Source: Labilibacter marinus (GTDB taxonomy: Bacteria > Bacteroidota > Bacteroidia > Bacteroidales > Marinilabiliaceae). From it: a DNA stretch of 64,000 bases. The stretch's first letter is position 1. Each line of letters opens with the position of its first letter. Of this stretch, positions 12,393-28,909 are shown one piece after another. The stretch is from contig NZ_LXYE02000029.1 in NCBI RefSeq assembly GCF_001659685.2, positions 1 through 64,000 of the forward strand, written 5' to 3'. The position numbers and the translations under genes were made by a program. The notes beneath the pieces are model-generated. The model saw only the letters and a list, made by a program, of their open reading frames with translations, was not told the DNA's origin and made no database searches.

Positions 12393-12393
12393 T

Positions 12394-13311: not shown

Positions 13312-13325
13312 AATCAGATTATAGG

Positions 13326-14315: not shown

Positions 14316-14330
14316 TGCATTGCTTTGGTT

Positions 14331-15287
14331 CTAATTTTCGTTCCAGTTAGCATTACTTGGGTTCGATATGCCTACTGTTTTGAGTGGGTCGGAGGAATTA
14401 ATACTAAAAAAAGCTCTTTTGATGGCACCTAAAAACCATCTTTTTCTCATTAATAGTGGGTGCTTTAAAACATGTAATAGGATTAATTTAATTGAATTTA
14501 GTCGATCAGAACCGGATATTGACTGATGTATTTTTCTTTGAATTATTAATTGCTTGATAAAGCATATAATTGATTTAACTTCCTTTTTACTCTGAATGCC
14601 TTTTTTGTTTGTGAAGTCCTGTATTATTCTCAAATGTTCTTCTGTTAATTTAATTCGATCATTGCTTTTACAATTTTGATGCAGCCTTAAGTTTGCTATT
14701 GTTTTATCTATAACGAATGGTTTTATCTTATTATCTTCAAGTTTTAACCAATATGCTAGATCCATCATATGGTATTTATCAAAACCACCAAATTTGTAAT
14801 ATAAATCAATACTAAGACAGACAGTTGGGTGAGAAATCCAACACTCGGCAAGAAATGTATAACCTAACACAGGCTTTGGACTAGTAGGTTGGTAAGTACC
14901 TGTAATAGTACTTTTTTTATTTATATAATTTATGCCTCCACAAAACCATTTTGTATCAGGATAAGATTCAATTTTATTAGCTAAAATTTCTAAAGCGTCT
15001 GGTGTTAAAGTATCATCTGAATTAACAACCATCCAATAATCCCCTGTAGCTTTTGCTAAACCTTTATTGTCGGCATCATATGTACCTTTGTCAGGTTCAC
15101 AAACCCAATATTCTATTTCTGTGTTATATTTCTTTAAAATTTCAACTGTATTATCAGTACTGCCACCATCAATAATTATTAATTCGTAGTTTTTATAACT
15201 TTGATTAATAATAGATAAAATAGTTTCTTCTATATATTGCCCTTGGTTGAAACTTGGAGTTATTATTGAGAATTTAGGATTAATCAT
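14331..15287 (-). CDS. glycosyltransferase family 2 protein
   Basis: A 318-residue GT2 enzyme. I chose the ATG at 15285-15287 because it begins the domain directly ([16 protein letters not shown]) and overlaps the upstream stop in an ATGATTAA arrangement (8 bases). A further upstream ATG would add 23 residues and overlap the upstream gene by 77 bases. Motifs are [41 protein letters not shown] and [11 protein letters not shown]. It is close in layout to 12394-13311, including the C-terminal basic Leu-rich extension and the final [14 protein letters not shown], so the two are probable paralogues. Confidence 0.86.
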
Positions 15288-15969
15288 GTGTGTCTTGGTT
15301 ATCTTTAATTGTATACTTTGAAATAAAATCTTCAACATTGTAGAAGAATTTTTCAATCTCCTGAAGATTTTCTTTAGCTTCCCATTCCCACCATTTTATT
15401 TTATTAAGCTGTGATATTTGTTCAGCTGAATATCGGTATTTTATTATTTGTATAGGACAACCTACTGCAATAGCGTACGGAGGGATGTCTTTTGAAACAA
15501 CTGCTCCTGCACCAATAATAGCTCCATTTCCAATTTTAACTCCATCTAACACAGTTACATTAGCACCAATAAACACATCGCTCCCAATTTCAATTGGTTT
15601 AAATTCTTCAATTTTATTTTCTTTCGAAAGAGCAATTTTGTTCGGGCTGTAGGTTGAATAAAACATAGGATGAGTAGATAAGCCATTTGTTGGATGAATT
15701 CCTAAGCCACTTCGAAAATTAGGTCCAATTGAACAAAAATTGCCTATGGATGTAAATTGGATAAATGAATTATGAGCTAAATAAGTATAATTGCCAATTG
15801 ATACCTCGTTCATGTAGGAGGGAGAAAGTATATTGGCCGTATTATTAACTCGTGTATTGTTAAGGTTTTTTCTGATTGTAAAAAAGCAAGTTTTACCATC
15901 TCTTAAATTTTTAAGATCAGGATAAAATTTCTCTGCAAAGTAATATACTATTGCTTTTATAAACTTCAT
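15280..15969 (-). CDS. CatB-type hexapeptide acyltransferase
   Basis: A 229-residue left-handed beta-helix acyltransferase of the xenobiotic/CatB-related O-acetyltransferase type. Hexapeptide repeats run from [17 protein letters not shown] to [40 protein letters not shown] loop containing [18 protein letters not shown] between the coils holds the predicted catalytic His. It probably acetylates a hydroxyl or amino group of a sugar of the glycan. It is also a candidate to N-acetylate an amino-sugar nucleotide, but NeuD/PglD-type sequence features are absent. It is coupled to the downstream GT2 by 8 bases and lies 12 bases after the DUF115-like gene. Confidence 0.82.
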
Positions 15970-15981
15970 TTTAAATATAAG

Positions 15982-16857
15982 TTATGATAACTCAAGCCGT
16001 TCAAATGCATCTATAAAAGAGTTTGGAGTAGCATTATATATTTTTGAATCCAAATACTTGGAATACATTTCAAGTATCTGAAACCCCTCAAACATTAAGG
16101 CGAAAGCACGAAGTAATTCATGCATTTTAAAGGTGATGTTGGAAGAGCCTTTTATAAAAGGGGAAGGCATGACTTTATTTATTGAGTAGAAATGTGGTGT
16201 GTTGTGATATACAATATTATCATTCCCAACAAACGCATGATTATGCAAGGACATATCTGCTCCGATTAAAAAAATAGTTTTAAATCCTAGGTTCAAAGCT
16301 TGGAATATAGCTGCAATTAGTACATTTTGATAATGCGGGTGGGATTGGTTTTTTTTATATGAATTAAATGTTGAAGATGTAATGTTATTGCAGCCATTAT
16401 TTCTATAAAAATAAACGCTTATGTTTTTATTTTGGCTTAGATCTAGAATGTTCCAATCTTTAGCTTGATGTGGTAATAATAAGTTTATTTTCCAAGTGGC
16501 CTTTTGTAATGCGTTTATTGTAGGTGCATATTCTTGATATTTCGAATCAGAAATGTTTTTATCCCAAAAAATTGGGTCTGCTATCACGTAAAAATTAGGT
16601 TTATAAGCTGTAAATTCCTTTGAAGCACCAAATGTGTTTAGGCAAAAGAGAACCTTATCCTTCAAAAAAGAAGATTGTTGATTTATTGTTTTAGTTAGGG
16701 ATGGACCATTACCCAGTATAAGTGCACTATTATTACTATTTATATTTATTTCTTTTGTTAGTATTGAAATATCTTCTACTATGTAGTCGTTATTTTTTTT
16801 ATTTAACGAAACTACAAGTTTTAGTAATATAGGTGGAAGGAAATCTTTAAAATTCAT
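15982..16857 (-). CDS. DUF115/GT42-like protein, candidate nonulosonate transferase
   Basis: A 291-residue protein with the GNGPSL loop at residues 49-54 (LILGNGPSLTKTI), a YVIADPIFW strand near 90, and a LIAAIFQALNLGFKTIFLIGADMS segment at about 180-203. The same order (GNGPSL, then a late SGxxMCAxAIALGYKEIYLSGIDF-type segment) is known in Campylobacter CST-I/II sialyltransferases (GT42), and GNGPSL is shared by DUF115/Maf proteins that act on flagellin nonulosonates. It lies 117 bases downstream of the CMP-nonulosonate synthetase gene. I therefore infer that it moves the nonulosonic acid onto the glycan, as an alternative to a DUF115 protein of unknown role. Identity to either family was not measured. 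Confidence 0.6.
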   Translation of the reverse strand: MNFKDFLPPILLKLVVSLNKKNNDYIVEDISILTKEININSNNSALILGNGPSLTKTINQQSSFLKDKVLFCLNTFGASKEFTAYKPNFYVIADPIFWDKNISDSKYQEYAPTINALQKATWKINLLLPHQAKDWNILDLSQNKNISVYFYRNNGCNNITSSTFNSYKKNQSHPHYQNVLIAAIFQALNLGFKTIFLIGADMSLHNHAFVGNDNIVYHNTPHFYSINKVMPSPFIKGSSNITFKMHELLRAFALMFEGFQILEMYSKYLDSKIYNATPNSFIDAFERLELS

Positions 16858-16974
16858 TTATTTTATGGTATTAAACTTTGATCAAATAGTGTATTTGTTT
16901 TCTTTAATCCAATAGTTAACTATAACTTATAGATTGATTTAGTAACTGTTGTGAGTGCGCGTGTTATATTTTTT

Positions 16975-17667
16975 TTAGAATATTAATTGTTCTGCATTCT
17001 TAAAATCATTCAAATTGTCGATATCACAAGAAGAGGATTCATCCATGATATATTTTTTAATTCGCTTAAGGTTTGAAATGGTTTTATGTGTTTTCAAACT
17101 AGAAGTGGCAATTATATATATCGCACCATTAAATTCGTAAATAGGAGGGCAGTCTTGCCTCCTCGTATAAGTGCTTTCTTTTGATATTTTTAAATAACCA
17201 TTTTGTTGTTCTTCAAATAAGTTAAAGTATGGATTGGATTTACTTATTTTAACTGAAACTACCATATCAAGATTATTATTCCAAAGTAAAAATGCTTCTT
17301 TTATATGGCTTGAGTTTCTTAATGGACTTGTTGGCTGTAGTAGGCAAACGCATTTATATTCTTTGCCTAATTGAGCTTTATAGTAATTGATTGCGTGCAA
17401 TAAAACATCAACAGACGAAGCAGTGTCTGTTGATAATGATGTTGGTCGGATAAATGGTACTTCTAAATTATATTTTTCAACAACCTGTTTTATCTCAACA
17501 TCATCAGTACTAACACAAATGTTTTCATCTTCTGAAATTTCCCTTGCCGCATCAATAGTATAATGAATTAAAGGTTTACCTGCTAAAGGAAGTATGTTTT
17601 TTCTAGGTAATCCTTTTGATCCACCTCTTGCGGGAATTATAAACAGCACATCTTTACTTATATCCAT
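16975..17667 (-). CDS. legF: CMP-nonulosonate (N-acylneuraminate/legionaminate) cytidylyltransferase
   Basis: A 230-residue cytidylyltransferase that activates a nonulosonic acid with CTP to CMP-sugar. The signature LFIIPARGGSKGLPRKN occupies residues 8-24, followed by ICVSTDDVEI, PFIRP, CLLQPTSPLR and FNGAIYI in the family order. I start at the ATG 17665-17667; an upstream ATG would add 36 residues overlapping the ptmE-like gene. The chosen start overlaps that gene by 14 bases (coupled). Last enzyme of the nonulosonate block. legF versus neuA cannot be settled from sequence alone; the neighbours (legB, legC) favour legionaminic-type. Confidence 0.86.
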   Translation of the reverse strand: MDISKDVLFIIPARGGSKGLPRKNILPLAGKPLIHYTIDAAREISEDENICVSTDDVEIKQVVEKYNLEVPFIRPTSLSTDTASSVDVLLHAINYYKAQLGKEYKCVCLLQPTSPLRNSSHIKEAFLLWNNNLDMVVSVKISKSNPYFNLFEEQQNGYLKISKESTYTRRQDCPPIYEFNGAIYIIATSSLKTHKTISNLKRIKKYIMDESSSCDIDNLNDFKNAEQLIF

Positions 17668-18709
17668 TATCAATGTGTTTAGCAAGATCTTGTGCTTTTT
17701 TATAATCTTCATGTTTCCCAATATCAATCCAGTGGCCTGTAATCGGATAACGAATAACCTTGTGTCCTTTTTCAATCATTAATTCCAGAAAATCAGTGGC
17801 ATTATAAAAGGTATCCTTGGGCACCATATTTAGCAGTTCTGCTTTAATCAAATAGATGCCGGCATTGGCATAATAATTATGGCTTGGCTTTTCTTTAAGA
17901 CCGGTGATATTTCTACCGTCCAAATTAAATATACCATAAGGAATATTTACAGTATAGGGCACTGCGGCCACCGAAATATCTGCATCATTCTCTGTAAAAT
18001 GGATAAAGAAATCTTCATAGTCGATATTTGTAAAAAGATCCGAATTCATGACCAAGACTGTTGGGTTATTGAAAGACGGTATGTTTTTAACAGCACCTAT
18101 AGTTCCCAGGTAATTATTTTCTCTGATGCATTGGATGGTTGTATTGTTTCGAGGTTCTTTAAAATGTTGTTCAAGCTGTTCTTTCAGGTAGTTGACAGTA
18201 ACATGGATGTGTTCCAGTCCATGAGTCAATAAGCTGTCGATATTTATGTCTATTATTGCTTTGTTTCCTATTTTTAATAGGGGTTTAGGCGTGTTTTGTG
18301 TTAAAGGGCGTAGACGCTCTCCTTTTCCTCCTGCCATTAAAACGGCATCAATTGGCAAACGAGTTTTATGTTTTTTTAGATTAATTACCCTTATGATTTC
18401 ATTGTCATTGTTTAAGCAAGGCAAAAGGCCAATGTTGAGGTTGCGGCATTTTTTTATCTCAGCTACATTCATGTCACCATCGCGGATAAATTTGAAATGG
18501 TCACACATAACAGTTTCAACGGGATCTTGTATGTCAATGCCGGCTATCAAATGTCTTCTGATATCACCGTCAGTTAAAGTGCCAACCATTTTTTCTGCCT
18601 CATTAACCACGAAAAGAGTCAATACATCATCGGACAGTTTATTCAGTTTGACTAAGGCATCGTGTATGGATGCTGCCGGTGAGATAATATATTTAGATAT
18701 ATCAGTCAT
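17654..18709 (-). CDS. ptmE: CBS-domain nucleotidyltransferase, PtmE-like (GlcN-1-P guanylyltransferase type)
   Basis: A 351-residue protein with a CBS pair (about residues 8-115) followed by a sugar-phosphate nucleotidyltransferase domain (LMAGGKGERLRPLTQNTPKPLL from residue 124). In Campylobacter jejuni the PtmE enzyme with this architecture makes GDP-glucosamine for legionaminic acid synthesis, and it defines the GDP route. The gene lies between legG and legF in the same operon with 1-base and 14-base junctions, which supports that role. GDP rather than UDP specificity is inference from homology of architecture. The CBS pair may bind a regulatory nucleotide. Confidence 0.75.
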   Translation of the reverse strand: MTDISKYIISPAASIHDALVKLNKLSDDVLTLFVVNEAEKMVGTLTDGDIRRHLIAGIDIQDPVETVMCDHFKFIRDGDMNVAEIKKCRNLNIGLLPCLNNDNEIIRVINLKKHKTRLPIDAVLMAGGKGERLRPLTQNTPKPLLKIGNKAIIDINIDSLLTHGLEHIHVTVNYLKEQLEQHFKEPRNNTTIQCIRENNYLGTIGAVKNIPSFNNPTVLVMNSDLFTNIDYEDFFIHFTENDADISVAAVPYTVNIPYGIFNLDGRNITGLKEKPSHNYYANAGIYLIKAELLNMVPKDTFYNATDFLELMIEKGHKVIRYPITGHWIDIGKHEDYKKAQDLAKHIDNGYK

Positions 18710-18710
18710 T

Positions 18711-19865
18711 TTATAAATCGTAAAATCGTTTGGGGATAAGCGCGCTGAAAGTTGTTTTTTTTATGACAGTAAGTATGTTTTCAGCTGTGCCTTCCTTTTC
18801 ATAAGGGTTTTTTGTTGTTAAAGCTGTCTGCTTGAAATTATCTGATAAGATGTGATTTAGGCCGGCACTGATTGATTCGTAACTTGCTTTGCAGTTAAAG
18901 ACACTACTTGCATATATTCTGCCTTTTTGCCTGTCACCAATATTAAGAGTAGGCTTTCCAAAACTAGGAGCTTCTATAATGCCGCTGGAAGAATTACCTA
19001 TGACTGCGGAGCAATGGCTTAAGGCAGATAAATACCTCATCAGACCCAATGATTTATATGCAGTGCAGCGCTTTTTATTGAGGTTAACATATTCGTGTAT
19101 CATTTGGGTTATAGCATAGCTGCCTGTGTCTGAATTGGGCATTGTGAATAGAACTTTATAGTCTTTGTGTTCGTCCAATGCAGAAAGCAGATTTTTCATT
19201 TGGTCTTCAGCAGAACTATCGGATAAAGTTTCCGGATGAAAGGTAACCAAGAAGAACTGAGTAGTCACTTCAAAATCGATGGCGGTTTCAAAATCGTTAA
19301 ATTTTAAAAGTTCATAATTTTTTGTGTTTTCTACGCCAAGTGCACCCACATTAATAACCTTATTCGGATTTTCACCTAATTGAATAACTCGCTTACGATA
19401 AGCTTCTGTTGAGGTGAAATGAAGATGGCTCATCTTTGTGATAGCGTGCCGAATAGCATCGTCGTACGCACCTTCTGTAATCTCACCGCCATGGATATGT
19501 GCTACCGGTATTTTATATATTAATGCTGCATTTACGGCCGATAACAATTCATACCGATCGCCAAGAGCCAATAATAAATTCGGTTTCAACTGTTCCAGCG
19601 CTTCTGCAAAACCTATCGTTCCAATGCCAATGGATTTAACCGTTCCATTCGCTGAACCGGACGATAACATCATTTCTACCTTGGAGTTAATGGTAAAACC
19701 ATCTTTTTCTATTTCCAGATAGGTTGATCCGTACTCCGGTGACAAATGCATATTGCATGCGATTATTTGAAGTTCCAGATCTGAAGAGGCTTGAATTAAC
19801 TTCATCAGATGGCTCAATAATCCATATTCGGCACGAGTACCGGTGACTACACAAATGCGCTTCAT
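18711..19865 (-). CDS. legG: hydrolysing NDP-sugar 2-epimerase (LegG/NeuC type)
   Basis: A 384-residue GT-B-fold enzyme that hydrolyses NDP-2,4-diacylamino-trideoxyhexose and inverts C2, giving the free sugar for condensation. It opens ICVVTGTRAEYGLLSHLM, contains HIHGGEITEGAYDDAIRHAITKMSHLHF and VTFHPET, and ends its active site with GNSSSGIIEAPSFGKPTLNIGDRQKGR, all standard for NeuC/LegG/NeuC-like hydrolysing epimerases. The start ATG overlaps the stop of legI by four bases (ATGA). LegG rather than NeuC is chosen by the surrounding legB/legC genes; no sequence feature I can see separates them reliably. Confidence 0.85.
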   Translation of the reverse strand: MKRICVVTGTRAEYGLLSHLMKLIQASSDLELQIIACNMHLSPEYGSTYLEIEKDGFTINSKVEMMLSSGSANGTVKSIGIGTIGFAEALEQLKPNLLLALGDRYELLSAVNAALIYKIPVAHIHGGEITEGAYDDAIRHAITKMSHLHFTSTEAYRKRVIQLGENPNKVINVGALGVENTKNYELLKFNDFETAIDFEVTTQFFLVTFHPETLSDSSAEDQMKNLLSALDEHKDYKVLFTMPNSDTGSYAITQMIHEYVNLNKKRCTAYKSLGLMRYLSALSHCSAVIGNSSSGIIEAPSFGKPTLNIGDRQKGRIYASSVFNCKASYESISAGLNHILSDNFKQTALTTKNPYEKEGTAENILTVIKKTTFSALIPKRFYDL

Positions 19866-20869
19866 AGTGTTATAAGTTCATCAATATTGAAATCTTTTGG
19901 AGCAATTTTACCGATTACCTCGTCCCAATTCATGGGCGATAACCCTGTTCCGGGCCGTTTGACATCTAAGTTATCCTCGGTGAATAGATCTCCTTTACTT
20001 ATTTCTTTTGCCGCCACAATACTTTTGCGGGCAACTTTTCTATTTTTTAATTCACTTTTTGTGGGTGCTTTAATCCCGGTACCTGCAATTGCTTTTTCAA
20101 TATTTCGTATGCACTTTACCATCTCTTTCAGCTCAGTAGGCTCTAATGATGCAATATGATCCGGCCCGGGTAATGTGCAGTCTAAAGTAAAATGTTTTTC
20201 AATTACTTTGGCACCCAGAGCAACTGCAGCAACAGGGACTTCAATACCTTGTGTGTGATCGGAGTAACCGATGGATGTATTAAAGTATTTCTCTATTTGA
20301 AGCATGGCATTTAAATTTACCTCTTCCATCGGAGTCGGATATTCTGTAGTGCAATGCAGTATGGTTATGTTACTTTTTGCAATGCCATTTTCGCTTAATA
20401 CAGTAAGGGCATCTTCTATTTCTTGTATGGTTGCCATTCCTGTTGATAGGATGACCGGTTTTTGCTTACTCGCTACCCTTTTTAAATAAGGTTTGTTGGT
20501 GATTTCACCGGATGGGATCTTAAAAAGTTCCATACCCAGGTTATCCAAAAACTCAATACTGGCCAAATCAAAAGCTGTGGAAAAGAATTTTATACCACAT
20601 GTGTTCGCCCAACTTATAAGGTCCGGATACCATTCTTTAGGTATTTCCAAAGCCTTTAGCATTTTATATTGAGAACTATCACCGTCCTTCATGTTGGCCG
20701 TTTGATAGTCTGCTTTTGGTGCATTTAGAGTAACAAGCTTTTCTGCTGAAAATGTCTGAAACTTTACATAATCTGCTCCTGCTAGCGCAGCTTTCTGTAT
20801 TAATTGTTTTGCTAGTTTAAGATTACCATTATGGTTCACTCCAGCTTCTGCTATTATTAGTGTTCTCAT
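19862..20869 (-). CDS. legI: legionaminate/N-acylneuraminate synthase with SAF domain
   Basis: A 335-residue condensing enzyme joining the free 2,4-diacylamino sugar with phosphoenolpyruvate to give a nonulosonic acid. The TIM barrel begins LIIAEAGVNHNGNLKLAKQL and contains AGADYVKFQTF, FFSTAFDLASI, IPSGEITN, LSTGMAT, LHCTTEYPTP, GYSDHTQGIEVPVAAVALGAKVIEKHFTLD. A C-terminal SAF/antifreeze-like domain (about residues 275-335, RKSIVAAKEISKGDLFTEDNLDVKRPGTGLSP) closes the active site. It is coupled to both neighbours by four-base overlaps. The name is by operon context. Confidence 0.88.
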   Translation of the reverse strand: MRTLIIAEAGVNHNGNLKLAKQLIQKAALAGADYVKFQTFSAEKLVTLNAPKADYQTANMKDGDSSQYKMLKALEIPKEWYPDLISWANTCGIKFFSTAFDLASIEFLDNLGMELFKIPSGEITNKPYLKRVASKQKPVILSTGMATIQEIEDALTVLSENGIAKSNITILHCTTEYPTPMEEVNLNAMLQIEKYFNTSIGYSDHTQGIEVPVAAVALGAKVIEKHFTLDCTLPGPDHIASLEPTELKEMVKCIRNIEKAIAGTGIKAPTKSELKNRKVARKSIVAAKEISKGDLFTEDNLDVKRPGTGLSPMNWDEVIGKIAPKDFNIDELITL

Positions 20870-21771
20870 AAATCAAATTTGTCTCCAATTTTAATTTTGG
20901 AATTACTTACAACCTCCTGAATTTCGATAGTTGAATCTAGAGTTTTTACAATATAGCCGAGTTCTGTTTTTCCAACAACTTGCCCGACTCTATTTTTATA
21001 AATAGGTGCATTTTCAATTAGTCTAGCCTTGTTTATTTTTATTTGTTGTCCCTTAAGATAGCATTGAGCCATGGGGCCAGGCGTACAGATTGCACGAATA
21101 AAATTGAAAATATCTCTACTATTATGCTGCCAGTTTATAATTTCATCACCATTACCTCTTATCCCACAATAAAAGCCTACTGGATGTATGTCGTTTTGTT
21201 TTATCAAATTTATCTTATTCTCTTGTACTAGCTTTACAGAATCATATAAAATTTGAGCACATTCAGTGTATGATTTTTCAAGAAGAGTCTTATATGTGTC
21301 ATTATCAGTTATAGGATATGTTCGTTGCAAAATTATATCTCCTGTATCGATTCCTTCATCTACATAATGTACAGTAATGCCAAATTCTTTTTCATCATTA
21401 ATTAAAACCCAATTTAGGATGTTACGACCTCTGTAATATGGTAATTTTCCAGCATGACAGTTTATTGTTCGTAATTTGGGGAGTTCTAAAATTCTTCTTT
21501 TGAAGATTTGGTTGTAGCTCATCGAAATAAAAAGGTCACAATTATATTTTGCCACTAATTGATAAAATTCATTTGAATTAATATTATGACCAATTATATA
21601 GGGAATATTATTTTTTGAAGCAGCATTTTTTAAGGTTAAATCTGCAGTGTCATTTCTTGGTACGATGAATTTTATTTCAATAGAAGTATCTTTAATTAGC
21701 TTCTCAAATGCTTTATGTGACCAAGGGCCATCTGCAAAATAACCTACTTTTAAAATTTTGTTTATTTTCAT
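20866..21771 (-). CDS. formyltransferase-family protein (predicted sugar N-formyltransferase)
   Basis: A 301-residue enzyme with the N-terminal formyltransferase domain of methionyl-tRNA formyltransferase, ArnA and VioF-type sugar N-formyltransferases. The catalytic trio is visible: N104 and H106 in TINCHAGKLPYYRGR and D142 in GIDTGD, with the 36-residue His-Asp spacing of E. coli Fmt as I recall it. A C-terminal beta-rich region of about 85 residues follows (KINKARLIENAPIYKNRVGQVVGKTELGYIV), as in Fmt-like proteins. It sits between legC and legI, where the legH N-acetyltransferase is expected, so I infer that N10-formyl-THF donates a formyl group to the 4-amino sugar nucleotide (C7 of the final sugar). 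The donor/acceptor pair is unproven. Confidence 0.72.
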   Translation of the reverse strand: MKINKILKVGYFADGPWSHKAFEKLIKDTSIEIKFIVPRNDTADLTLKNAASKNNIPYIIGHNINSNEFYQLVAKYNCDLFISMSYNQIFKRRILELPKLRTINCHAGKLPYYRGRNILNWVLINDEKEFGITVHYVDEGIDTGDIILQRTYPITDNDTYKTLLEKSYTECAQILYDSVKLVQENKINLIKQNDIHPVGFYCGIRGNGDEIINWQHNSRDIFNFIRAICTPGPMAQCYLKGQQIKINKARLIENAPIYKNRVGQVVGKTELGYIVKTLDSTIEIQEVVSNSKIKIGDKFDL

Positions 21772-21789
21772 GTATGTAATGTTAATGCA

Positions 21790-22938
21790 TTATAATAATG
21801 AACTGCTCGGTATATTAACGACTCTGTCAGCAAGCCATTCTGTATTACTTAAATCACCGCACATACAGTTTTGAAACATTGGCAGACGGTTTATCAACTC
21901 CCATACAGGGCGAGTCATAACACCTTTTTTGTTGGTTTCTTCAAGAAAGGAATCACGTTCTTCTTTGTTTTTTAGAACAAGGCAGTTTAACCAATAGTTC
22001 GATTGTGCATCCTTGGGTTCCACAAAATAGTCAATCTTGTTATCAGTAAAAAAAGCAGCATATTTGTGGGCTAGCTTACGTTTTGCCTTTATAATTTCAT
22101 TGAGCTTTTCTAATTGGGCCAAGCCAATGGCTGCATTTATATTAGGCATACGATAGTTATAACCAATCTCATCGTGTAAAAATGCCCAAGGATGAGATGT
22201 TTTGGCTTGTGTTGAAAGATGTTTAGCTCTTGTGGCAAGGGCTTCATCATTGAACAGAAGCATTCCACCACCGCCTGTAGTAATGGTTTTATTACCGTTA
22301 AAACTTAGTATACCGATAGGGGCAAAGGTTCCTGTGTGTTTGCTCTTATAATAACTGCCTAAACTCTCTGCCGCATCTTCAATGAGAGCAATGTGAAATT
22401 GTTCACAGATGGTTTTTATTTCATCTATTCTACACGGATGTCCAAAGGTGTGCATGGGTACACAAGCTTTAATCGTGTTACCTGTTGTCTTGTTTATGCA
22501 GTTGTTATTTATTATTTCACAATGTTCGTTAAGAAATGCTCTTAAGGCATCTGGACTTAATCCCATGGTTTCTTTATCCACATCCACAAATACAGGTTTG
22601 GCACCACAGTAACTAATGGCATTTGCCGTAGCAATAAAGGTCAGTGGTTGGGTAATGACTTCGTGGTTTTGTTCAACGCCGCTTAGTACTAACGCAAGAT
22701 GTAGTGCATTGGTGCCATTCACACAGGCCACCGCTTTTGTAGAACCGGTATAGATTGCTATTTTTGTTTCAAACTGGTCAACAAATTTGCCTACACTTGA
22801 AACAAAAGTGGTATCGATGCATTCATTGAGATACTTTTTCTCGTTACCAGAAAATACAGGCGCGTGAAGGGGGATAAATGCTTCCGGTTCGTTGAATACT
22901 TGCCTTATATATTGGATAGTCTTTTTGAAGTTGGCCAT
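21790..22938 (-). CDS. legC: LegC-family PLP aminotransferase
   Basis: A 382-residue DegT/DnrJ/EryC1 aminotransferase. It starts FIPLHAPVFSGNEKKYLNECIDTTFVSSVGKFVDQFE, which is characteristic of LegC sugar aminotransferases, and carries AVACVNGTNALHLAL, IEDAAESLGS (Asp of the PLP N1 contact) and SFNGNKTITTGGGGM, whose Lys (NGNK) is the Schiff-base residue. It converts the 4-keto-6-deoxy product of legB to a 4-amino sugar nucleotide. It begins two bases after the legB stop and ends 18 bases before the formyltransferase gene, so it is co-translated with them. Confidence 0.9.
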   Translation of the reverse strand: MANFKKTIQYIRQVFNEPEAFIPLHAPVFSGNEKKYLNECIDTTFVSSVGKFVDQFETKIAIYTGSTKAVACVNGTNALHLALVLSGVEQNHEVITQPLTFIATANAISYCGAKPVFVDVDKETMGLSPDALRAFLNEHCEIINNNCINKTTGNTIKACVPMHTFGHPCRIDEIKTICEQFHIALIEDAAESLGSYYKSKHTGTFAPIGILSFNGNKTITTGGGGMLLFNDEALATRAKHLSTQAKTSHPWAFLHDEIGYNYRMPNINAAIGLAQLEKLNEIIKAKRKLAHKYAAFFTDNKIDYFVEPKDAQSNYWLNCLVLKNKEERDSFLEETNKKGVMTRPVWELINRLPMFQNCMCGDLSNTEWLADRVVNIPSSSLL

Positions 22939-22940
22939 AA

Positions 22941-23921
22941 CTATACGTTATAAATATTGGCTTTATATTTCAATAGGTTGGCCGGTAAGCAAAACCAGTC
23001 ACAGGTTTCTTTCAATCCTTTTTCTATGTCATAATCGGGCGTAAAACCTGTTAATTCAGTTATGAGGCTATTGTCGCCCCAGAGTCGGAATACTTCTGAT
23101 TTTTCTGGGCGCAATCGCTGTTCATCAGTGATAAACCTGACATCCGATTTCATTATTTTTTTAATTAAATCAAGGGTGTCTTTCATGGATATTTCAAAAT
23201 TGGAACTAATGTTAATTTCTTTTCCAATTGTCTTATCGTTTTCGGCTAGGGCAATAAACCCTTTACAAGTATCTTTTACAAAATTAAAATCACGCGTAGG
23301 AGATAAGTCTCCCAGTTTTATTTCTTTAACCCCGTTGGCTATTTGTGTAATAATAGTTGGTATTATTGCTCTTGCCGACTGTCGAGGACCATAAGTATTA
23401 AATGGTCGAGCGATGGTAAGGGGCAGATTAAATGCATTAAAGAAACTCATGGCCATGGCATCAGCACCAATTTTAGATGCAGAATAGGGTGATTGTGCTT
23501 GTTTCGGGTGCTTTTCATCAATAGGCACGTATTGTGCAGTGCCATAAACTTCTGATGTAGAAGTATGAATTACCCTAATGTTACCGTTTTCTTTTGCTGC
23601 CTGACATATATTTAGTGTGCCGGTAACATTGGTGTCAACATAACTACTTGGCGCAATATAGGAGTAGGGAATCGCTATAAGTGCAGCCAAATGAAAAATA
23701 ATATCAACTCCTTTGGTTATTTCTTTGCAAAAGTGAGGATCGCGGATATCTCCGGATACAACCTCAAGCTTGTTATTCTCATCTATATCTTCTAACCATC
23801 CCCAATTATTAAATGAATTATATTGCGAAAGGGCTTTTACTTTATGGCCTTTTCGTAGTAAAGCCTCTGTTAAATGTGAGCCGATAAAACCATCAGCACC
23901 TGTAACTAATATTTTTTTCAC
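22941..23921 (-). CDS. legB: LegB-type sugar-nucleotide 4,6-dehydratase
   Basis: A 326-residue extended SDR enzyme predicted to remove water from NDP-GlcNAc to the 4-keto-6-deoxy sugar. Rossmann signature KKILVTGADGFIGSHLTEAL, then HLAALIAIPYSYIAP, STSEVYGTAQYVPIDEKHP, SPYSASKIGADAMA (Tyr-x-x-x-Lys) and RPFNTYGPRQSARAIIPTII. I place the start at the GTG 23919-23921, which forms a GTGA overlap with the wzt stop; an ATG 21 bases upstream (23942) is the alternative and would add MGKNKIT. First gene of the nonulosonate block. GDP- versus UDP-linked substrate is inference. Confidence 0.83.
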   Translation of the reverse strand: MKKILVTGADGFIGSHLTEALLRKGHKVKALSQYNSFNNWGWLEDIDENNKLEVVSGDIRDPHFCKEITKGVDIIFHLAALIAIPYSYIAPSSYVDTNVTGTLNICQAAKENGNIRVIHTSTSEVYGTAQYVPIDEKHPKQAQSPYSASKIGADAMAMSFFNAFNLPLTIARPFNTYGPRQSARAIIPTIITQIANGVKEIKLGDLSPTRDFNFVKDTCKGFIALAENDKTIGKEINISSNFEISMKDTLDLIKKIMKSDVRFITDEQRLRPEKSEVFRLWGDNSLITELTGFTPDYDIEKGLKETCDWFCLPANLLKYKANIYNV

Positions 23922-25207
23922 AGTAATTTTGTTTTTTCCCATTTAAGCAATGTGCTTAAGTGCCCAAGTCGCTTGTTGCCTCTTGGAGTTGTTGTATCTA
24001 TTACTTCAAAAGAACAAGCGTATTCATGTTTGTCTATTTGAAAGCCACTAAAGTTTTGACGACTGGTAAATGATAACGTTATGAGATACTTACCATGCCC
24101 AATAGTTCTTCGTGGAATCTTTAATTGAAAACAATATTGACCAGGTTCTAAAGAGTCCATGCAATTTGGTTGGAAATCATAGGTATCAGACATTAAAACC
24201 ATGGTTCCGTTATCTTTTGTTAAATCAAACCAACCGTATAAACCTGGTATTGCTTGTCGTGAAGTGCAAATTATTTCAATATTTATTTCCTCATCGCATT
24301 CAAAGGATGTTTGTATCTGATGAGTTTTATCTAATACTCTAATAGAATCTACTTGAAAGGGTTTGCTTTTGTCTTCAGGAAAGCTTGATGTAGAACCAAC
24401 TTGACTATTAATCTGTTCTTTCAGATACTCGTCAATTATGTCATTAGTATTTCCGCTTTTGTGCAACATGCCTTGTTGCATCCATATGGTGTTTGGGCAT
24501 AGGGTTCTTATTGATGGCATATTATGACTCACAAAAAGCACAGTCCTACCTTGATTGGTACTCACATCCTGCATCTTACCAATGGCTTTTTTCTGGAATT
24601 CAGCATCACCAACAGCCAATACTTCATCCACCACTAGTATTTCAGGCTCCAAGTGTGCCGCAATGGCAAAACCCAGACGTACCGTCATACCGCTAGAGTA
24701 TCGTTTAGTAGGGGTGTCTAGATATTTGGCTACACCAGCAAAATCAACGATGGCGTCGAGCTGTTTGTCTATTTCCCATTTACGCATACCCATAATAGTA
24801 CCGTTCATATAAATATTTTCGCGGCCTGTCATCTCGGGATGGAAACCTGTACCTACCTCTAATAAGGATGCTAATCGGCCTTTTACTTTGATACTACCAG
24901 TAGTAGGGGAGGTTACACGGCTGAGGAGTTTTAGTAGGGTACTTTTACCTGCACCGTTTTTACCTATAATACCCAGTACTTCACCTTCTTTTACCTCAAG
25001 ATTTATATCTTGTAAGGCGGCTACCAGTTCTCCTTTTTCGGCTTTTTGGGTGCGGTCGTTTACATGACCTATCTTGGCGTAGGGGTCGTCTTGTCCGAGG
25101 ATGTTCATTCGTACAAAGCGGTTAAGGTCATGGGAGAGGGTACCTGTGCCTACTTCGCCGAGGCGGTATATTTTACTGAGGTTTTCTATTTTGATTACAG
25201 TCTTCAT
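23918..25207 (-). CDS. wzt: ABC transporter ATPase for polysaccharide export, Wzt type
   Basis: A 429-residue protein. Residues 1-260 are the ATPase domain: Walker A GKNGAGKST at 82-90, the polysaccharide-exporter loop RYSSGMTVRLGFAIAAHLEP and Walker B EILVVDEVLAVGD at about 189-201. Residues 290-425 are a beta-rich C-terminal extension (CDEEINIEIICTSRQAIPGLYGWFDL) like the carbohydrate-binding domain that makes Wzt recognise the non-reducing end of a completed glycan. It works with the permease encoded at 25749-26594, though a GxxExxY gene lies between them. It overlaps legB by four bases through the GTG start. Confidence 0.9.
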   Translation of the reverse strand: MKTVIKIENLSKIYRLGEVGTGTLSHDLNRFVRMNILGQDDPYAKIGHVNDRTQKAEKGELVAALQDINLEVKEGEVLGIIGKNGAGKSTLLKLLSRVTSPTTGSIKVKGRLASLLEVGTGFHPEMTGRENIYMNGTIMGMRKWEIDKQLDAIVDFAGVAKYLDTPTKRYSSGMTVRLGFAIAAHLEPEILVVDEVLAVGDAEFQKKAIGKMQDVSTNQGRTVLFVSHNMPSIRTLCPNTIWMQQGMLHKSGNTNDIIDEYLKEQINSQVGSTSSFPEDKSKPFQVDSIRVLDKTHQIQTSFECDEEINIEIICTSRQAIPGLYGWFDLTKDNGTMVLMSDTYDFQPNCMDSLEPGQYCFQLKIPRRTIGHGKYLITLSFTSRQNFSGFQIDKHEYACSFEVIDTTTPRGNKRLGHLSTLLKWEKTKLL

Positions 25208-25277
25208 GTCATCTAATTTTCACGAATTAACGCGAATTTTATTTTATTGCTGCTTGCGCAGTCTTATTTGTCGCGAA
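25208..25277. repeat. short GCGAATT-type interspersed repeat
   Basis: This 70-base gap contains CACGAATTAACGCGAATTT and TCGCGAATTAATG, separated by TGCTTGCGCAG. The pattern recalls the GCGAATT words at 8719-8800. It is non-coding and sits between the wzt gene and the GxxExxY gene. Confidence 0.45.
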
Positions 25278-25679
25278 TTAATGAAAGGTATTTATGATTC
25301 GCTTATATTGTAAACTGGTCTTTCCAAAATTAATTAAAACACCTAGTTTCTTATTTGTTGCTTTTAGGTAGTTAATCAATTGAGATTCATGAGCAGATGT
25401 TAAATCACTCAATGCCTTAAGTTCAATAATTATTTCATTATAGCAAACGAAATCAGCCTTATAGTATTTATCAAGTTTTTCACCCTTGTAATAAATGTGA
25501 ATAAGACTTTCTCTTTCAAATGGTATGTTTTGTAGCTTAAGTTCTTTTTCTAAGGCTTCTTGATATACAGGTTCCAAGAAGCCATTTTTTAGTTCTTTGT
25601 GAACCTCCATTGCGGCTCCAATAATCCGATAGGATTCATTTTTGAATAAAAGATCATGTTGCTTAAGAAGTTCGGGCAT
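25278..25679 (-). CDS. GxxExxY family protein
   Basis: A 133-residue protein of the GxxExxY family (PF13366), named for GFLEPVYQEAL, seen here at residues 33-43. Other family marks are IIGAAMEVHKELKNG, YKADFVCYNEIIIELKAL (a PD-(D/E)xK-like strand pattern) and LINYLKATNKKLGVLINFGKTSLQYKRI. Its role is unknown; a nuclease-like fold has been suggested for the family. It is commonly found as a solitary gene inside Bacteroidota glycan loci. It separates wzt and wzm, which otherwise belong together, so it looks inserted. Confidence 0.9.
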   Translation of the reverse strand: MPELLKQHDLLFKNESYRIIGAAMEVHKELKNGFLEPVYQEALEKELKLQNIPFERESLIHIYYKGEKLDKYYKADFVCYNEIIIELKALSDLTSAHESQLINYLKATNKKLGVLINFGKTSLQYKRIINTFH

Positions 25680-25748
25680 TTCATATTCGATTAATAAATT
25701 ATCGCTAATTATTTTATTCGAGTAAATTAGTAATAATTAGGTGACAGA

Positions 25749-26594
25749 CTATACAGTATCTATAAAGTTACGTTCTGTTTTATGGAAGATGACTATTCCT
25801 GATACGAGTAATACGATAGCTACAACAACGCTATATAATAGGTTTGGCCAGCTAAAGTGTCCTGCGCCTAAAAAGGCATATTTAAAACCTTCAAGTATAG
25901 GGGTGAAGGGATTGTATAAAGCAATGGTTTGTAAACGAGGATCTTCGATGGTACTTACCGGGTAAATCACCGGACTGGCATACATTAATAATTGAACCCC
26001 AAAGGCCAATAAAAAGGTTAAGTCGCGGTATTTAGTTGTAAGACTTGTAAAGATGATACCAGCTCCCAAACCGTATGCAGCCATGAGTAGGATATATACC
26101 GGTAATAAAGCGATGTTCCAGTTAGGGTTTACGCTAACATCTCCCACAATGATATAATAGGCATAAACGGCCAAGAATAATACAAACTGTATCAAGAATT
26201 TGATGAGGCCACTGGTGACCTTAGCAAAAGGCATGATGAGCCGCGGGAAATATACCTTGCCAAATATGCCGGCATTTTCGGTAAATGTTTTGGCGGTGGT
26301 GTTAAAGCTCTCTGCAAAATAGTTCCAGATAGTGATACCTGCTAAGTAGAATAAGGGCTGCGGAACACCATCGGTAGATATTTTAGCAATATTACCAAAG
26401 ACAACAATATATATTAAGGTTGTCATGATGGGTTGCACTATAAACCAGATAGGGCCAAGTACGGTCTGTTTGTATACGGTGATGATATCTCGTTTTACAA
26501 ACATGCTGAGCAAATCGCGGTAAGCCCATATCTCTTTAAAGTTGATGTCGAATGCGTGCCTTTTGGGGCGTATAATTAAATCGTAATCTTTCAA
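25749..26594 (-). CDS. wzm: ABC-2 type polysaccharide exporter permease, Wzm type
   Basis: A 281-residue integral membrane protein with six predicted helices, of the ABC2_membrane family that forms the Wzm channel. The N-terminal amphipathic segment KEIWAYRDLLSMFVKRDIITVYKQTVLGPIWF and the sequence YASPVIYPVSTI before the final helices are characteristic. It exports a finished undecaprenyl-linked glycan in partnership with the ATPase at 23918-25207. The start codon is TTG, since no in-frame ATG is available before the conserved domain. Upstream there is a 134-base gap with repeats, and the toxin-antitoxin pair follows further upstream. Confidence 0.9.
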   Translation of the reverse strand: MKDYDLIIRPKRHAFDINFKEIWAYRDLLSMFVKRDIITVYKQTVLGPIWFIVQPIMTTLIYIVVFGNIAKISTDGVPQPLFYLAGITIWNYFAESFNTTAKTFTENAGIFGKVYFPRLIMPFAKVTSGLIKFLIQFVLFLAVYAYYIIVGDVSVNPNWNIALLPVYILLMAAYGLGAGIIFTSLTTKYRDLTFLLAFGVQLLMYASPVIYPVSTIEDPRLQTIALYNPFTPILEGFKYAFLGAGHFSWPNLLYSVVVAIVLLVSGIVIFHKTERNFIDTV

Positions 26595-26623
26595 TGTTGC
26601 GGTGTTTAATTGTTCAAATGTTG

Positions 26624-26673
26624 ATTAGTGGTTGATAGCTAATTTGTGATTAGGTTATTAGTTGTGTTGTGAT
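26624..26673. repeat. direct repeat, left copy, flanking toxin-antitoxin pair
   Basis: Left copy of a 50-base repeat starting ATTAGTGGTT and ending GTTGTGTTGTGAT. It differs from the right copy at 27415-27464 at two positions (GA versus AT at offsets 11-12) and shares a 38-base perfect block. The copies start 791 bases apart. Confidence 0.85.
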
Positions 26674-26728
26674 ATGGTTTTAAGGTATAGGGTTCAGGGT
26701 ATAAAGGTGCTACGATTTAACGGTTTAT

Positions 26729-27034
26729 CTAATTGAATGTTAGTTTCTGTGGGTCTTGCCTCGAATCGTAGATTCTTAGTATTTCAATGTGCTTTCTATT
26801 TGTTCGGTAATATAGCGAGTTGTGTTTTGTTAATACACACTTTCTAATTTTCAACGATTTATATATTACTGGAAATTGTTTTGGGTTTTCAGCAATTTGA
26901 TTCAGTAGAAACGTTGTTTTGTTGATAAATTGTAAAGCAACTTTATTGTTCCATTTTCTACTCAAATAATTCAGTATTCCTGCAAAATCATGTTCGGAAG
27001 AGGGAGACCAAACTATTTGTTTACTCATCCGCAT
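26729..27034 (-). CDS. RelE/ParE-family toxin
   Basis: A 101-residue type II toxin of the RelE/ParE superfamily. Family marks are IVWSPSSEHDFAGILNYLSRKWNNKVALQFINK at the N-terminus (ParE-like helical hairpin), LLNQIAENPKQFPVIYKSLKIRKCVLTKHNSLYYR, and the end HIEILRIYDSRQDPQKL (RIxxxRQ-type active strand). Such toxins act on translation or on gyrase; which applies is not visible. It starts inside the antitoxin (14-base overlap) and is the distal gene of the pair. Confidence 0.9.
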   Translation of the reverse strand: MRMSKQIVWSPSSEHDFAGILNYLSRKWNNKVALQFINKTTFLLNQIAENPKQFPVIYKSLKIRKCVLTKHNSLYYRTNRKHIEILRIYDSRQDPQKLTFN

Positions 27035-27269
27035 GTAATTTTTTATACTTTTTTATTATATCCTCATTCAAGATATGTTGTCCTTCATCGAGTTCATCAA
27101 TGGCTTTATAGATTCCTTTTTTTTGAGTTTCAGATAGTAATTTCCAGTCAGAGGTGTCTTTTTGTCCATTTATGTAATTACTTAATAGCCCATAAATATC
27201 CTCTAAGCTACTATTGTCAAGCGTATCAACTTGTCGGAAAATCATTAATTTGAGTTCTGCAGCATTCAT
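27021..27269 (-). CDS. cognate antitoxin of the RelE/ParE pair
   Basis: An 82-residue acidic protein (MNAAELKLMIFRQVDTLDNSSLEDIYGLLSNYING..., ending DIIKKYKKLHADE) of a type that precedes RelE/ParE toxins in Bacteroidota. It has no recognisable DNA-binding motif; the sequence DELDEGQHILNEDIIKKY near the C-terminus is the likely toxin-wrapping helix. Being first in the operon, with the toxin overlapping its end, fits the standard antitoxin-toxin order. Confidence 0.85.
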   Translation of the reverse strand: MNAAELKLMIFRQVDTLDNSSLEDIYGLLSNYINGQKDTSDWKLLSETQKKGIYKAIDELDEGQHILNEDIIKKYKKLHADE

Positions 27270-27604
27270 GTTGTTGTAATTTTAACTTCTATAAATTTAA
27301 CGATTAAAAGTTGCTTCGCAGTTGTTTTTGTCCACAGATTAAGAGGATTATACCATTTTTTTTTAGCGTCTACTATTAGCCGAAAGGTGATATAATTCGT
27401 TTGATTTAGGGTTAATTAGTGGTTATTAGCTAATTTGTGATTAGGTTATTAGTTGTGTTGTGATTTAGTGTTAAAATTCAAAGGTGTAAAGGTATAAGGT
27501 TTAATTGTGTAACGGTACAATGGTTTAAAATGATTGGTTGTTGTTTACTGCCCACTACCTACTACTTTTCTGTCTACTATCTCCGTGTTCCTTTCTCCTA
27601 TTTT
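27270..27604. other. intergenic region with composite repeats
   Basis: A 335-base gap between the antitoxin and the nucleotide-sugar dehydrogenase. It contains a CTTCGCAG word (27313-27320), TCCACAGATTAAGAGGATTA, the right 50-base direct repeat (27415-27464), an AAAGGTATAAGG array (27478-27528) and a pyrimidine-rich stretch made of ACTACCTACTACT and CTGTCTACTATCTCC words (27550-27625). No gene. A promoter for the dehydrogenase is not evident. Confidence 0.45.
27415..27464. repeat. direct repeat, right copy, flanking toxin-antitoxin pair
   Basis: Right copy of the 50-base direct repeat at 26624-26673 (48 of 50 bases identical). It ends GTTGTGTTGTGAT. Between the two copies lies the whole toxin-antitoxin pair with about 55 bases of flanking DNA on the left and about 145 on the right. 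Confidence 0.85.
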
Positions 27605-28909
27605 CTATAGTCTATAATCTACTGTTTCTTTTGGTAATACTGCTTTTATATCATAGATGATGGATGATTGATCTGTTTTATATTTTTCCAGGTCCATCTC
27701 TAGGAACTCGCTATGTGCTACGGCCAGAATAATGGCATTGTATCTTTTATCGTTAAGGTCGCTTTCATTGTTGATGCAGTCTAGCTGATATTCCTTGTTT
27801 ACTTCCGTAATACTGGCCTGTGGGTCGTAAATGTCTACCTTGCACCCTAACAAGTTTAATTCATTGATTAAATCAACCACCTTGGTATTTCTAATGTCAG
27901 GACAATTCTCTTTAAAGGTAATGCCTAAACAAAGTACTTTACTGTCTTTGATGGTATGACCAGCCAGTAGCATTTTTCTGATGATTTGTGAAGCGATCCA
28001 AACGCCCATACCATCGTTCATTTTTCTGCCTGCTAAAATAATATCTGGCGAATAACCTGTTTCTTGTGCTTTTTGTGCCAGATAATAAGGATCTACACCA
28101 ATGCAATGTCCACCTACTAAACCTGGTCGGAAGGGTAGGAAATTCCACTTGGTGCCAGCTGCTTCCAATACCTCATTGGTATCGATGTTTAGCTTTGAAA
28201 ATATGATGGCCAACTCATTTACAAAAGCAATGTTTATATCGCGCTGACTATTTTCGATCACTTTAGCAGCTTCTGCTACTTTAATAGATGAAGCTTTGAA
28301 GGTTCCTGCTGTGATGATCGATTTATATAAGCGGTCAACTCTTTCTGCTGTTTCAGGGGTTGAACCTGAAGTCAGCTTTAATATTTTTGTTAATGTTCTG
28401 ACTTTATCACCTGGGTTAATTCTCTCTGGAGAATAACCAACAAAAAAATCACTGTTAAAATTTAAGCCACTTACACGCTCTAGTTCTGGTATACATTCCT
28501 CTTCGGTTACACCAGGATAAACCGTAGATTCATAAATCACCAAATCGCCCTTTTCTAAATTTAAGCCCACTGTTTCACTGGCTTTTATCAACGGACTTAA
28601 ATCAGGGTGATGATTTTTGTCGGTAGGCGTAGGTACCGTAACAATAAAAACATTGCAGTCTGAAATAAAATTTCTGTCGCTGGTCAGTTTTAGATAGTTA
28701 TTATTGGTTTTATTATCAATAACAGATTCTAATTCTTCACTACTGATTTCAAGTGTGCTATCATTGCCTTTTTGTAGTTCGGATACTCTATTGGAGTCAA
28801 TGTCGAGTCCAATTGTACGGTATTTTTTAGCAAATTCTACCGCTAACGGAAGCCCTACATATCCTAATCCTACAATGGCAATTTTTGTTTTTTCGTTATT
28901 AGTACTCAT
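27605..28909 (-). CDS. nucleotide-sugar dehydrogenase (UDP-sugar 6-dehydrogenase, TviB/WbpO type)
   Basis: A 434-residue four-electron dehydrogenase that oxidises C6 of a UDP-sugar to a uronate. The NAD site is VGLGYVGLPLA at residues 13-23, followed by VTVPTPTDKNHHPDLSPL and ESTVYPGVTEEECIPELE. LVGGHCIGVDPYYLA carries the catalytic Cys. ITFKENCPDIRNTKVVDL and VDIYDPQA complete the C-terminal domain. The layout matches the TviB/WbpO group acting on UDP-GlcNAc or UDP-GalNAc, so the glycan probably contains an amino-uronic acid; UDP-ManNAc or UDP-glucose are alternatives. Confidence 0.87.
   Translation of the reverse strand: MSTNNEKTKIAIVGLGYVGLPLAVEFAKKYRTIGLDIDSNRVSELQKGNDSTLEISSEELESVIDNKTNNNYLKLTSDRNFISDCNVFIVTVPTPTDKNHHPDLSPLIKASETVGLNLEKGDLVIYESTVYPGVTEEECIPELERVSGLNFNSDFFVGYSPERINPGDKVRTLTKILKLTSGSTPETAERVDRLYKSIITAGTFKASSIKVAEAAKVIENSQRDINIAFVNELAIIFSKLNIDTNEVLEAAGTKWNFLPFRPGLVGGHCIGVDPYYLAQKAQETGYSPDIILAGRKMNDGMGVWIASQIIRKMLLAGHTIKDSKVLCLGITFKENCPDIRNTKVVDLINELNLLGCKVDIYDPQASITEVNKEYQLDCINNESDLNDKRYNAIILAVAHSEFLEMDLEKYKTDQSSIIYDIKAVLPKETVDYRL

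Follow-up and report, generated by a model that had tools for sequence, protein, structure and literature searches.

A putative sugar N-formyltransferase in the LegH position of a legionaminate-type operon from Labilibacter marinus

The legionaminic acid pathway proceeds through LegB, LegC, LegH, LegG, LegI and LegF, with PtmE in its guanosine diphosphate (GDP) branch. In a 64,000-nucleotide stretch of Labilibacter marinus DNA (contig NZ_LXYE02000029.1, positions 1 to 64,000; hereafter the window), contiguous genes on one strand provide each of these steps except LegH. Where the known pathway has the acetyltransferase LegH, the window has a folate-type formyltransferase, here called FT. Does FT take over the LegH step, so that the operon makes a formylated nonulosonate? 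The sequence points to this answer. With a probability of roughly 0.77, FT is a sugar-nucleotide N-formyltransferase that replaces the LegH acetyltransferase, the LegC product being 4-N-formylated and carried on to the cytidine monophosphate (CMP)-activated CMP-Leg5Ac7Fo, a legionaminate with 5-N-acetyl and 7-N-formyl groups.

In the proposed pathway, LegB and LegC would convert nucleoside diphosphate (NDP)-GlcNAc to NDP-2-acetamido-4-amino-2,4,6-trideoxyglucose. The carrier may be GDP; the ptmE-like gene presumably encodes a sugar-1-phosphate guanylyltransferase of the GDP branch. FT would then transfer a formyl group from N10-formyl-tetrahydrofolate to the 4-amine of the LegC product, LegG would release and 2-epimerise the formylated sugar, and LegI would condense it with phosphoenolpyruvate, whereby C4 of the hexose becomes C7. 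LegF would finally yield CMP-Leg5Ac7Fo, provided that LegG, LegI and LegF all accept the formyl group. Glycosyltransferases of the locus could place the sugar on a glycan, and the neighbouring Wzm/Wzt transporter might export it.

We named the genes of the operon by curated NCBIfam and Pfam models with their own cut-offs (Table 1). According to these models and the list of open reading frames (ORFs), seven ORFs lie contiguously on the minus strand in the order legB-legC-FT-legI-legG-ptmE-legF. The distances between them are 2 bases (legB-legC), 18 (legC-FT), -4 (FT-legI), -4 (legI-legG), +1 (legG-ptmE) and -14 (ptmE-legF), which bears out an earlier note, made from the letters alone, that had described seven consecutive genes with gaps of at most 18 bases. 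Its legF gene is likewise present, but not to the extent of the ORF at 16975-17775, which begins with a TTG within ptmE; translation probably begins at the ATG at 17667, or possibly at the one at 17712. LegB, LegC, LegG (NeuC) and LegI (NeuB) all exceeded their curated cut-offs, as expected of the legionaminate pathway. No gene of the operon reached the cut-off of the PseB or PseC model, and LegF remained under that of the PseF model TIGR03584 (159.6 bits, cut-off 205.7). Since this LegC is the only one above cut-off in the genome and this LegI the only NeuB-family match at E <= 0.001, we see no evident second nonulosonate operon.

Table 1. Genes of the operon and of its surroundings, with the model matches on which their names are based.
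Gene or product	Position	Strand	Match or remark
legB, NDP-GlcNAc 4,6-dehydratase	22941..23942	-	TIGR04180 511.8 bits, cut-off 475
legC, pyridoxal phosphate (PLP) aminotransferase (makes 4-amine)	21790..22938	-	TIGR04181 565.7 bits, cut-off 420
FT, predicted sugar N-formyltransferase, 301 amino acids (aa)	20866..21771	-	PF00551 83.5 bits; PF02911 45.5 bits
legI (NeuB family), nonulosonate synthase	19862..20869	-	TIGR03569 496.7 bits, cut-off 399.65
legG (NeuC family), hydrolysing 2-epimerase	18711..19865	-	TIGR03568 471.7 bits, cut-off 235.9
ptmE-like, CBS + nucleotidyltransferase	17654..18709	-	PF00571; PF00483 (NTP_transferase)
legF, CMP-nonulosonate synthetase	16975..17667	-	PF02348 100.7 bits
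Wzt-type ABC ATPase with C-terminal domain	23918..25207	-	PF00005; PF14524; overlaps legB by 25 bases
Wzm-type ABC permease	25749..26594	-	PF01061
MptE-like (DUF115-type) protein, candidate nonulosonate glycosyltransferase	15982..16857	-	PF01973 38.4 bits, cut-off 34.6
CatB/Vat-type hexapeptide acyltransferase	15280..15969	-	hexapeptide models, 25 matches listed, all under cut-offs

FT has both the PF00551 N-domain and the Asn-His-Asp triad of the sugar-nucleotide N-formyltransferases. Its N104, H106 and D142, which we take to be the catalytic residues, are indeed kept as previously described, and are invariant across an alignment of 53 sequences that includes FT. FT fell under the cut-off of all 7 NCBIfam models that it matched, among them the methionyl-tRNA formyltransferase (Fmt) model TIGR00460 (130.6 bits, cut-off 201.5). 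The genome has four PF00551 genes, FT included, and a tree of 73 proteins covered three of them, leaving out the gene on contig C17. In this tree, the gene on contig C29 grouped with Escherichia coli Fmt and 18 Fmt-like proteins from other genomes, and FT belonged to a clade of 33 rows (support 94/97) that otherwise consisted of relatives fetched with FT. The gene on contig C65 formed a very long branch of unsure placement. Apart from FT and the C29 Fmt, the two remaining PF00551 genes are open frames of 193 and 294 aa. We thus rejected FT as the housekeeping Fmt, given its sub-cut-off score, its separate clade and the genome's own Fmt on C29; a grouping with tRNA-Met formyltransferases had been named beforehand as grounds for giving the proposal up.

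An AlphaFold2 model of FT (predicted local distance difference test, pLDDT, 96.0; predicted template modelling score, pTM, 0.90) found the N-formyltransferase domain of ArnA as its first match in a fold search (5j63, E 3.9e-28, template modelling score, TM, 0.84). Fmt chains matched equally well (TM 0.84-0.89), followed by FdtF, WlaRD, QdtF and WbkC. Because the ArnA and Fmt folds match equally well, the predicted fold confirms the superfamily, and does not separate sugar enzymes from Fmt or tell the substrate. We also considered PseJ, which we rejected as the identity of FT: it scored 61.8-62.2 bits and ranked behind Fmt, ArnA, WbkC and 10-formyl-tetrahydrofolate dehydrogenase.

If FT belongs to nonulosonate synthesis, it should keep company with the genes of that pathway elsewhere. 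We scanned a single genome of each species with an eight-protein alignment, obtaining 228 encoding stretches and retaining the 80 best loci; the FT relatives in these are 51-67% identical to FT. By record title, from which we assume the phylum names, the 80 represent Bacteroidota, Bacillota, Campylobacterota, Planctomycetota, Pseudomonadota, Desulfobacterota, Spirochaetota, Elusimicrobiota and others. Neighbours were labelled with models built here and trained on the same loci, so that the following counts are descriptive and not an independent test. The next labelled gene after FT was legI in 66/80 loci (60/71 when contig-edge loci are excluded), and the nearest labelled gene upstream was legC in 35/80, NeuD in 14/80 and ptmE in 13/80. 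Anywhere in the stretch, legI was found in 69/80 and legC in 63/80. Further legC-FT-legI operons, which the earlier note had proposed to look for, are thus numerous. Before legC, several loci have a protein about 395 aa long in the place of LegB; that of L091:6580-7770 is a CapD/PglF-like dehydratase (PF02719). Formyltransferases adjoining PseI-like genes in three loci (L013, L028, L029) were rejected as members of the FT family, as they form their own clade; the one of the three compared with solved structures, from L013, is ArnA-like.

Within the order of L. marinus, FT occurs in 2/295 genomes at E <= 1e-50, that of the window counted, and in a sample of the phylum in 8/395 at E <= 1e-75 among the matches listed. 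As FT is sporadic in both order and phylum, its distribution suggests lateral spread. The FT of L009, from the same phylum, and that of L078, a record titled Chlorobiaceae, are virtually identical in the tree, which would fit Bacteroidota as the phylum, GTDB placing the Chlorobi there. No FT relative was found on viral contigs, nor on plasmids at 1e-40. Phages yielded 18 records at 23-36% identity to FT, 2 of them annotated as methionyl-tRNA formyltransferase and 16 without annotation.

To see the slot between legC and legI in a sample that does not select on FT, we looked for LegC in 395 genomes of the phylum. Forty places exceeded the curated cut-off, the window among them, and the other 39 loci were fetched. 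Five of the 40 (L194-L198) were set aside, having no legI and a LegC just 40-43% identical to that of the window, which left 35 Leg-type loci. NeuD was present without FT in 23 loci, FT without NeuD in 7, both in 1 and neither in 4, as judged by models trained on loci of the same two sets, which have one locus or more in common (L078 and L164 seem to be the same). The mutual exchange of NeuD and FT gave a Fisher p of 3.4e-4, uncorrected for relatedness. In 2/23 NeuD loci (L166, L183) the NeuD gene is not directly behind legC. Of the slot proteins, four (L161, L164, L173, L184) were checked with Pfam and have PglD_N and Hexapep domains. The usual slot enzyme in these LegC loci is a PglD/NeuD-type hexapeptide transferase and not a GNAT protein, and a PglD/NeuD-type gene was likewise not found in the operon of the window.

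Three genomes of the same order illustrate the exchange. Between legC and legI, the window has FT, L161 a PglD/NeuD protein and L160 an ATP-grasp protein, while the legB/legC and legI genes of L160 and L161 are 57-74% identical to those of the window. Because the flanking genes are similar and the occupant differs, the gene between legC and legI appears from these sequences to be an exchangeable part. In L160 the slot (L160:8104-9358) comprises the ATP-grasp protein, a PF15632 member of 318 aa, together with an ORF of 104 residues; the former is perhaps an amide-forming ligase that adds another acyl or aminoacyl group.

Relatives of the operon that have no legI bear on the stage at which FT would act. 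Eleven of the 80 FT loci lack legI in their stretch, and NeuB was searched for in the genomes of nine of them, L056 and L112 lying outside this search. No NeuB-family match was found in L035 (an Owenweeksia metagenome-assembled genome, MAG) or L051 (a Bacteroidia MAG), L075 (a 1.4 Mb genome) gave only a 19-bit match, and the other six have one, as did all three control genomes with a normal operon. Both L035 and L051 carry legC-FT-ptmE, and the FT relatives of L035, L051 and L075 are 58-63% identical to FT. Since legC-FT-ptmE occurs there without a NeuB match, FT would act on the LegC product and not on the nine-carbon sugar in these two organisms, if the MAGs are near complete. The same arrangement suggests a formamido hexose as end product in L035 and L051, and raises the question whether the operon of the window supplies NDP-QuiNAc4NFo to the glycan, alongside or instead of a nonulosonate. 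This we consider very unlikely, as the window has undamaged legI, legG and legF genes that overlap or directly adjoin FT and one another.

Could another enzyme acetylate the 4-amine, and FT formylate a different amino sugar of the glycan? The search for ACETYLTRANSFERASE elsewhere in the genome with the NeuD model gave 16 matches, none above cut-off (best 58.6 of 160.8 bits), and the PseH model gave 4, again none above cut-off (best 48.5 of 93.1 bits). The GNAT model PF00583 had 16 matches, none on contig C22, in accord with the statement that the operon contains no GNAT-type legH. We thus rejected a LegH elsewhere in the genome, no NeuD or PseH match being above cut-off, with sub-cut-off hexapeptide and general GNAT matches remaining; the expectation of the earlier note stands to this extent. 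Two further aminotransferases on other contigs match the LegC model below its cut-off, and would fit a second amino sugar as FT substrate.

The candidate that the earlier note had itself offered for such a role, the CatB-type gene, shares the strand of the operon, being the second gene after legF and the seventh after legC. Its hexapeptide part gives local alignments at 47-49% with three NeuD-slot proteins of relatives (L179, L184, L186). Nevertheless, it scored just 47 bits with the NeuD-slot model, compared with 197-286 bits in loci where NeuD fills the slot, and 47.9 bits with the NeuD model (cut-off 160.8). It more likely serves O-acetylation than N-acylation. FT, for its part, tracks legC and legI across phyla and is lodged between both here, with an 18-base gap on one side and a 4-base overlap on the other. 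Acetylation of the 4-amine by the CatB-type gene or by an unlinked hexapeptide or GNAT enzyme is therefore unlikely, and the idea that the CatB-type gene is the acylase has become weaker.

The remaining alternative concerns the nitrogen on which FT acts, which might be that of hexose C2 or nonulosonate C5. A 5-N-formyl-legionaminate has been reported from Halorubrum, whose cluster includes a candidate gene for a formyltransferase, in the accessible part of that paper (PMC6137143), and NeuD and FT occur together in 15/80 loci. Formylation at C5 would, however, require prior removal of the C2 acetyl group, and some relatives carry a pair of genes that may do this. In 10/80 loci (L046, L054, L062, L081, L094, L095, L096, L099, L104, L105) a second formyltransferase, FT2, accompanies a PIG-L-type de-N-acetylase, and four more have the PIG-L type alone. 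In the 9 of these 10 loci whose maps were drawn, FT2 is 22-33% identical to FT, and in 8 of the 9 the pair follows legG. Of the 14 FT2 rows in the tree, 13 group in a single clade (100/99) separate from FT, and the last one is a long branch next to the FT clade. The group also occurs in L166, L174, L178, L183 and L191; PIG-L (PF02585) was confirmed with Pfam in L166, L178 and L183, all three from the LegC-anchored set, and elsewhere the assignment rests on the motif and our own model. It is likely that the pair removes the C2 acetyl and re-formylates the amine, giving 5-N-formyl sugars like that of Halorubrum (PMC6137143). Positions 12001-28000 of the window gave no match to FT2 or PIG-L. As the deacetylase pairs with a different clade, and as FT stands without NeuD in 7/8 FT loci of the LegC-anchored sample, we regard action of FT on C2 or C5 as quite unlikely.

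Several observations nonetheless weigh against 4-N-formylation by FT in the place of LegH. One of the 16 sub-cut-off NeuD-model and 16 GNAT matches in the genome could in principle serve as LegH. FT and NeuD are not strictly exclusive, a NeuD-type gene lying within 400 bases of FT in 15/80 loci. Two loci counted as FT without NeuD are not simple cases: L168 has a GNAT-like gene right behind legC (PF13527, 25.3 bits, cut-off 25), and L178 also holds FT2 and PIG-L. Besides the 11/80 FT loci without legI in the stretch, of which L112 and L114 have neither legC nor legI, the LegB-like gene before legC in L035 and L051 is just 24% identical to LegB of the window, and the absence of NeuB there counts only if both MAGs are near complete. 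Finally, the formyl group of Halorubrum legionaminate was assigned to 5-N and not 7-N in the accessible part of its description (PMC6137143). On balance, the sequence evidence supports the interpretation of the earlier note, a formyltransferase in the LegH position; the product Leg5Ac7Fo itself we infer.

The more surprising part of this study was found in the relatives and not in the window. In 15/80 loci (L045, L048, L054, L055, L059, L062, L069, L076, L078, L084, L085, L086, L094, L111, L112) a run of 8-11 G falls within the 200 bases that precede the conserved start motif of FT, the upstream gene being a NeuD-type acetyltransferase in 11 and another gene in 4. Such tracts mark 11/15 loci with NeuD beside FT and 4/65 others (Fisher p = 1.4e-7, relatedness uncorrected). 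By comparison, we counted 37 tracts of G or C, 8 to 16 long, in 1.30 Mb, homopolymers longer than 16 and all of L089 (contig-end runs) excluded; the excess is uncorrected for relatedness or tract-rich genomes, and tract lengths in MAGs are unsure. Ahead of the conserved motif, 6/11 NeuD loci (L045, L059, L076, L078, L084, L085) offer FT no in-frame ATG; GTG and TTG are likewise missing in four of these, and L045 and L084 have TTG. NeuD and FT are in different frames in all six, and since both frames are open through the tract, a change in tract length would shift reading from the NeuD end into FT. By title the six belong to Desulfobacterales, Clostridia, Sulfurimonas, Chlorobiaceae, Turneriella and Aliarcobacter; L045, L078 and L076/L084/L085 occupy three separate parts of the FT clade, and L059 is outside the tree. 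FT starts at an ATG of its own in several Lachnospiraceae loci, where the tract may instead determine the end of the upstream frame. In two Helicobacter species, a protein of 667 or 740 aa upstream of FT (L111:6998-9001, L114:87-2309) matches the FT2 model weakly (62-63 bits), with several 10-14 G tracts around.

A tract at the NeuD/FT junction is expected if the two enzymes are alternatives for one amine, and its recurrence suggests an acetyl/formyl phase switch. No G tract of at least 8 was present at the NeuD end in the NeuD-only loci of the LegC-anchored set, a comparison confounded by taxon as the set is from one phylum. The window has no run of at least 7 G or C at 15001-27000, and its operon is without NeuD. 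We would lay even odds on the broader proposal that the LegH step is an exchangeable acyl slot, that poly-G slippage flips 7-N-acetyl and 7-N-formyl in many lineages, at some loci through an acetyltransferase-formyltransferase fusion frame, and that the window represents the fixed-formyl form.

With Wzm/Wzt genes upstream of the operon and glycosyltransferase genes downstream, the operon looks like part of an ABC-transporter-type surface glycan locus. Beyond Wzm lie a UDP-sugar dehydrogenase-type gene, an APS kinase gene and a NusG-like gene; the downstream side includes GT61, GT2-type and GT1/4-type glycosyltransferase genes. The MptE-like gene, whose domain also occurs in Maf flagellin glycosyltransferases, is directly 3' of legF, and L160, a genome of this order, has a 32% identical relative ahead of legB.

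If our reading is right, a widespread clade, whose member in the window is easily misread as methionyl-tRNA formyltransferase, gains a testable function, and formylated rather than acetylated sialic-acid-like sugars are predicted in many bacterial phyla. Operons of this kind would be overlooked or wrongly assigned by pathway searches that demand LegH. If real, the NeuD/poly-G/FT junction that recurs in relatives is a switch by which the surface exchanges a single acyl group.

How does FT compare with known systems? PseJ (PDB 6ci2, 6ci4), which we take to be the N-formyltransferase of pseudaminate biosynthesis, acts at a nonulosonate acylation step, as proposed for FT, and aligns to part of the PF00551-type domain of FT. 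It differs in its chains of 192-217 residues compared with 301, in the lack of close homology (62 bits) and in belonging to the Pse and not the Leg branch. FT shares its fold with the N-terminal UDP-Ara4N formyltransferase of ArnA and with WbkC, QdtF, FdtF and WlaRD, which are 21-26% identical to it and differ in their sugar substrates; a stretch RGR..LNWVL.N is common to ArnA and FT and is not seen in the aligned Fmt chain 4iqf. For Halorubrum sp. PV6, the accessible text reports N-formyl-legionaminate and, within the leg cluster, HrrPV6_1050 as a candidate gene for a formyltransferase, but with 5-N-formyl assigned, LegH and NeuD also present and no formyltransferase assay described in that text (PMC6137143).

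Other sources, as far as their text was accessible, touch on parts of this picture. N-formyl is among the natural C5/C7 substituents of Pse and Leg (PMC6388019). Flagellin glycosylation islands contain formyltransferase genes in Geobacillus, one of them replacing the acetyltransferase gene fdtC (PMC5109656), and in Enterobacteriaceae (PMC4875605). In Campylobacter and Helicobacter canadensis, phase-variable formyltransferase genes have homopolymeric tracts (G 8-10, G 9-10; HCAN_0643), with no link drawn in those texts to LegC/NeuD or an acetyl/formyl choice (PMC6321876, PMC2823697); for H. canadensis, slippage merging two other coding regions is noted (PMC2823697). A 2026 Clostridium paper assigned LegH by its acetyltransferase domain, and the word formyl is absent from its accessible part (PMC13317340). 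In the accessible open-licence literature we found no report of such a leg-FT operon or of an acetyl/formyl switch. Formyl in place of acetyl is thus not new, formyl-legionaminate and PseJ being already known; what is new here is the leg-linked FT clade, its breadth, and the evidence for exchange in the slot between legC and legI.

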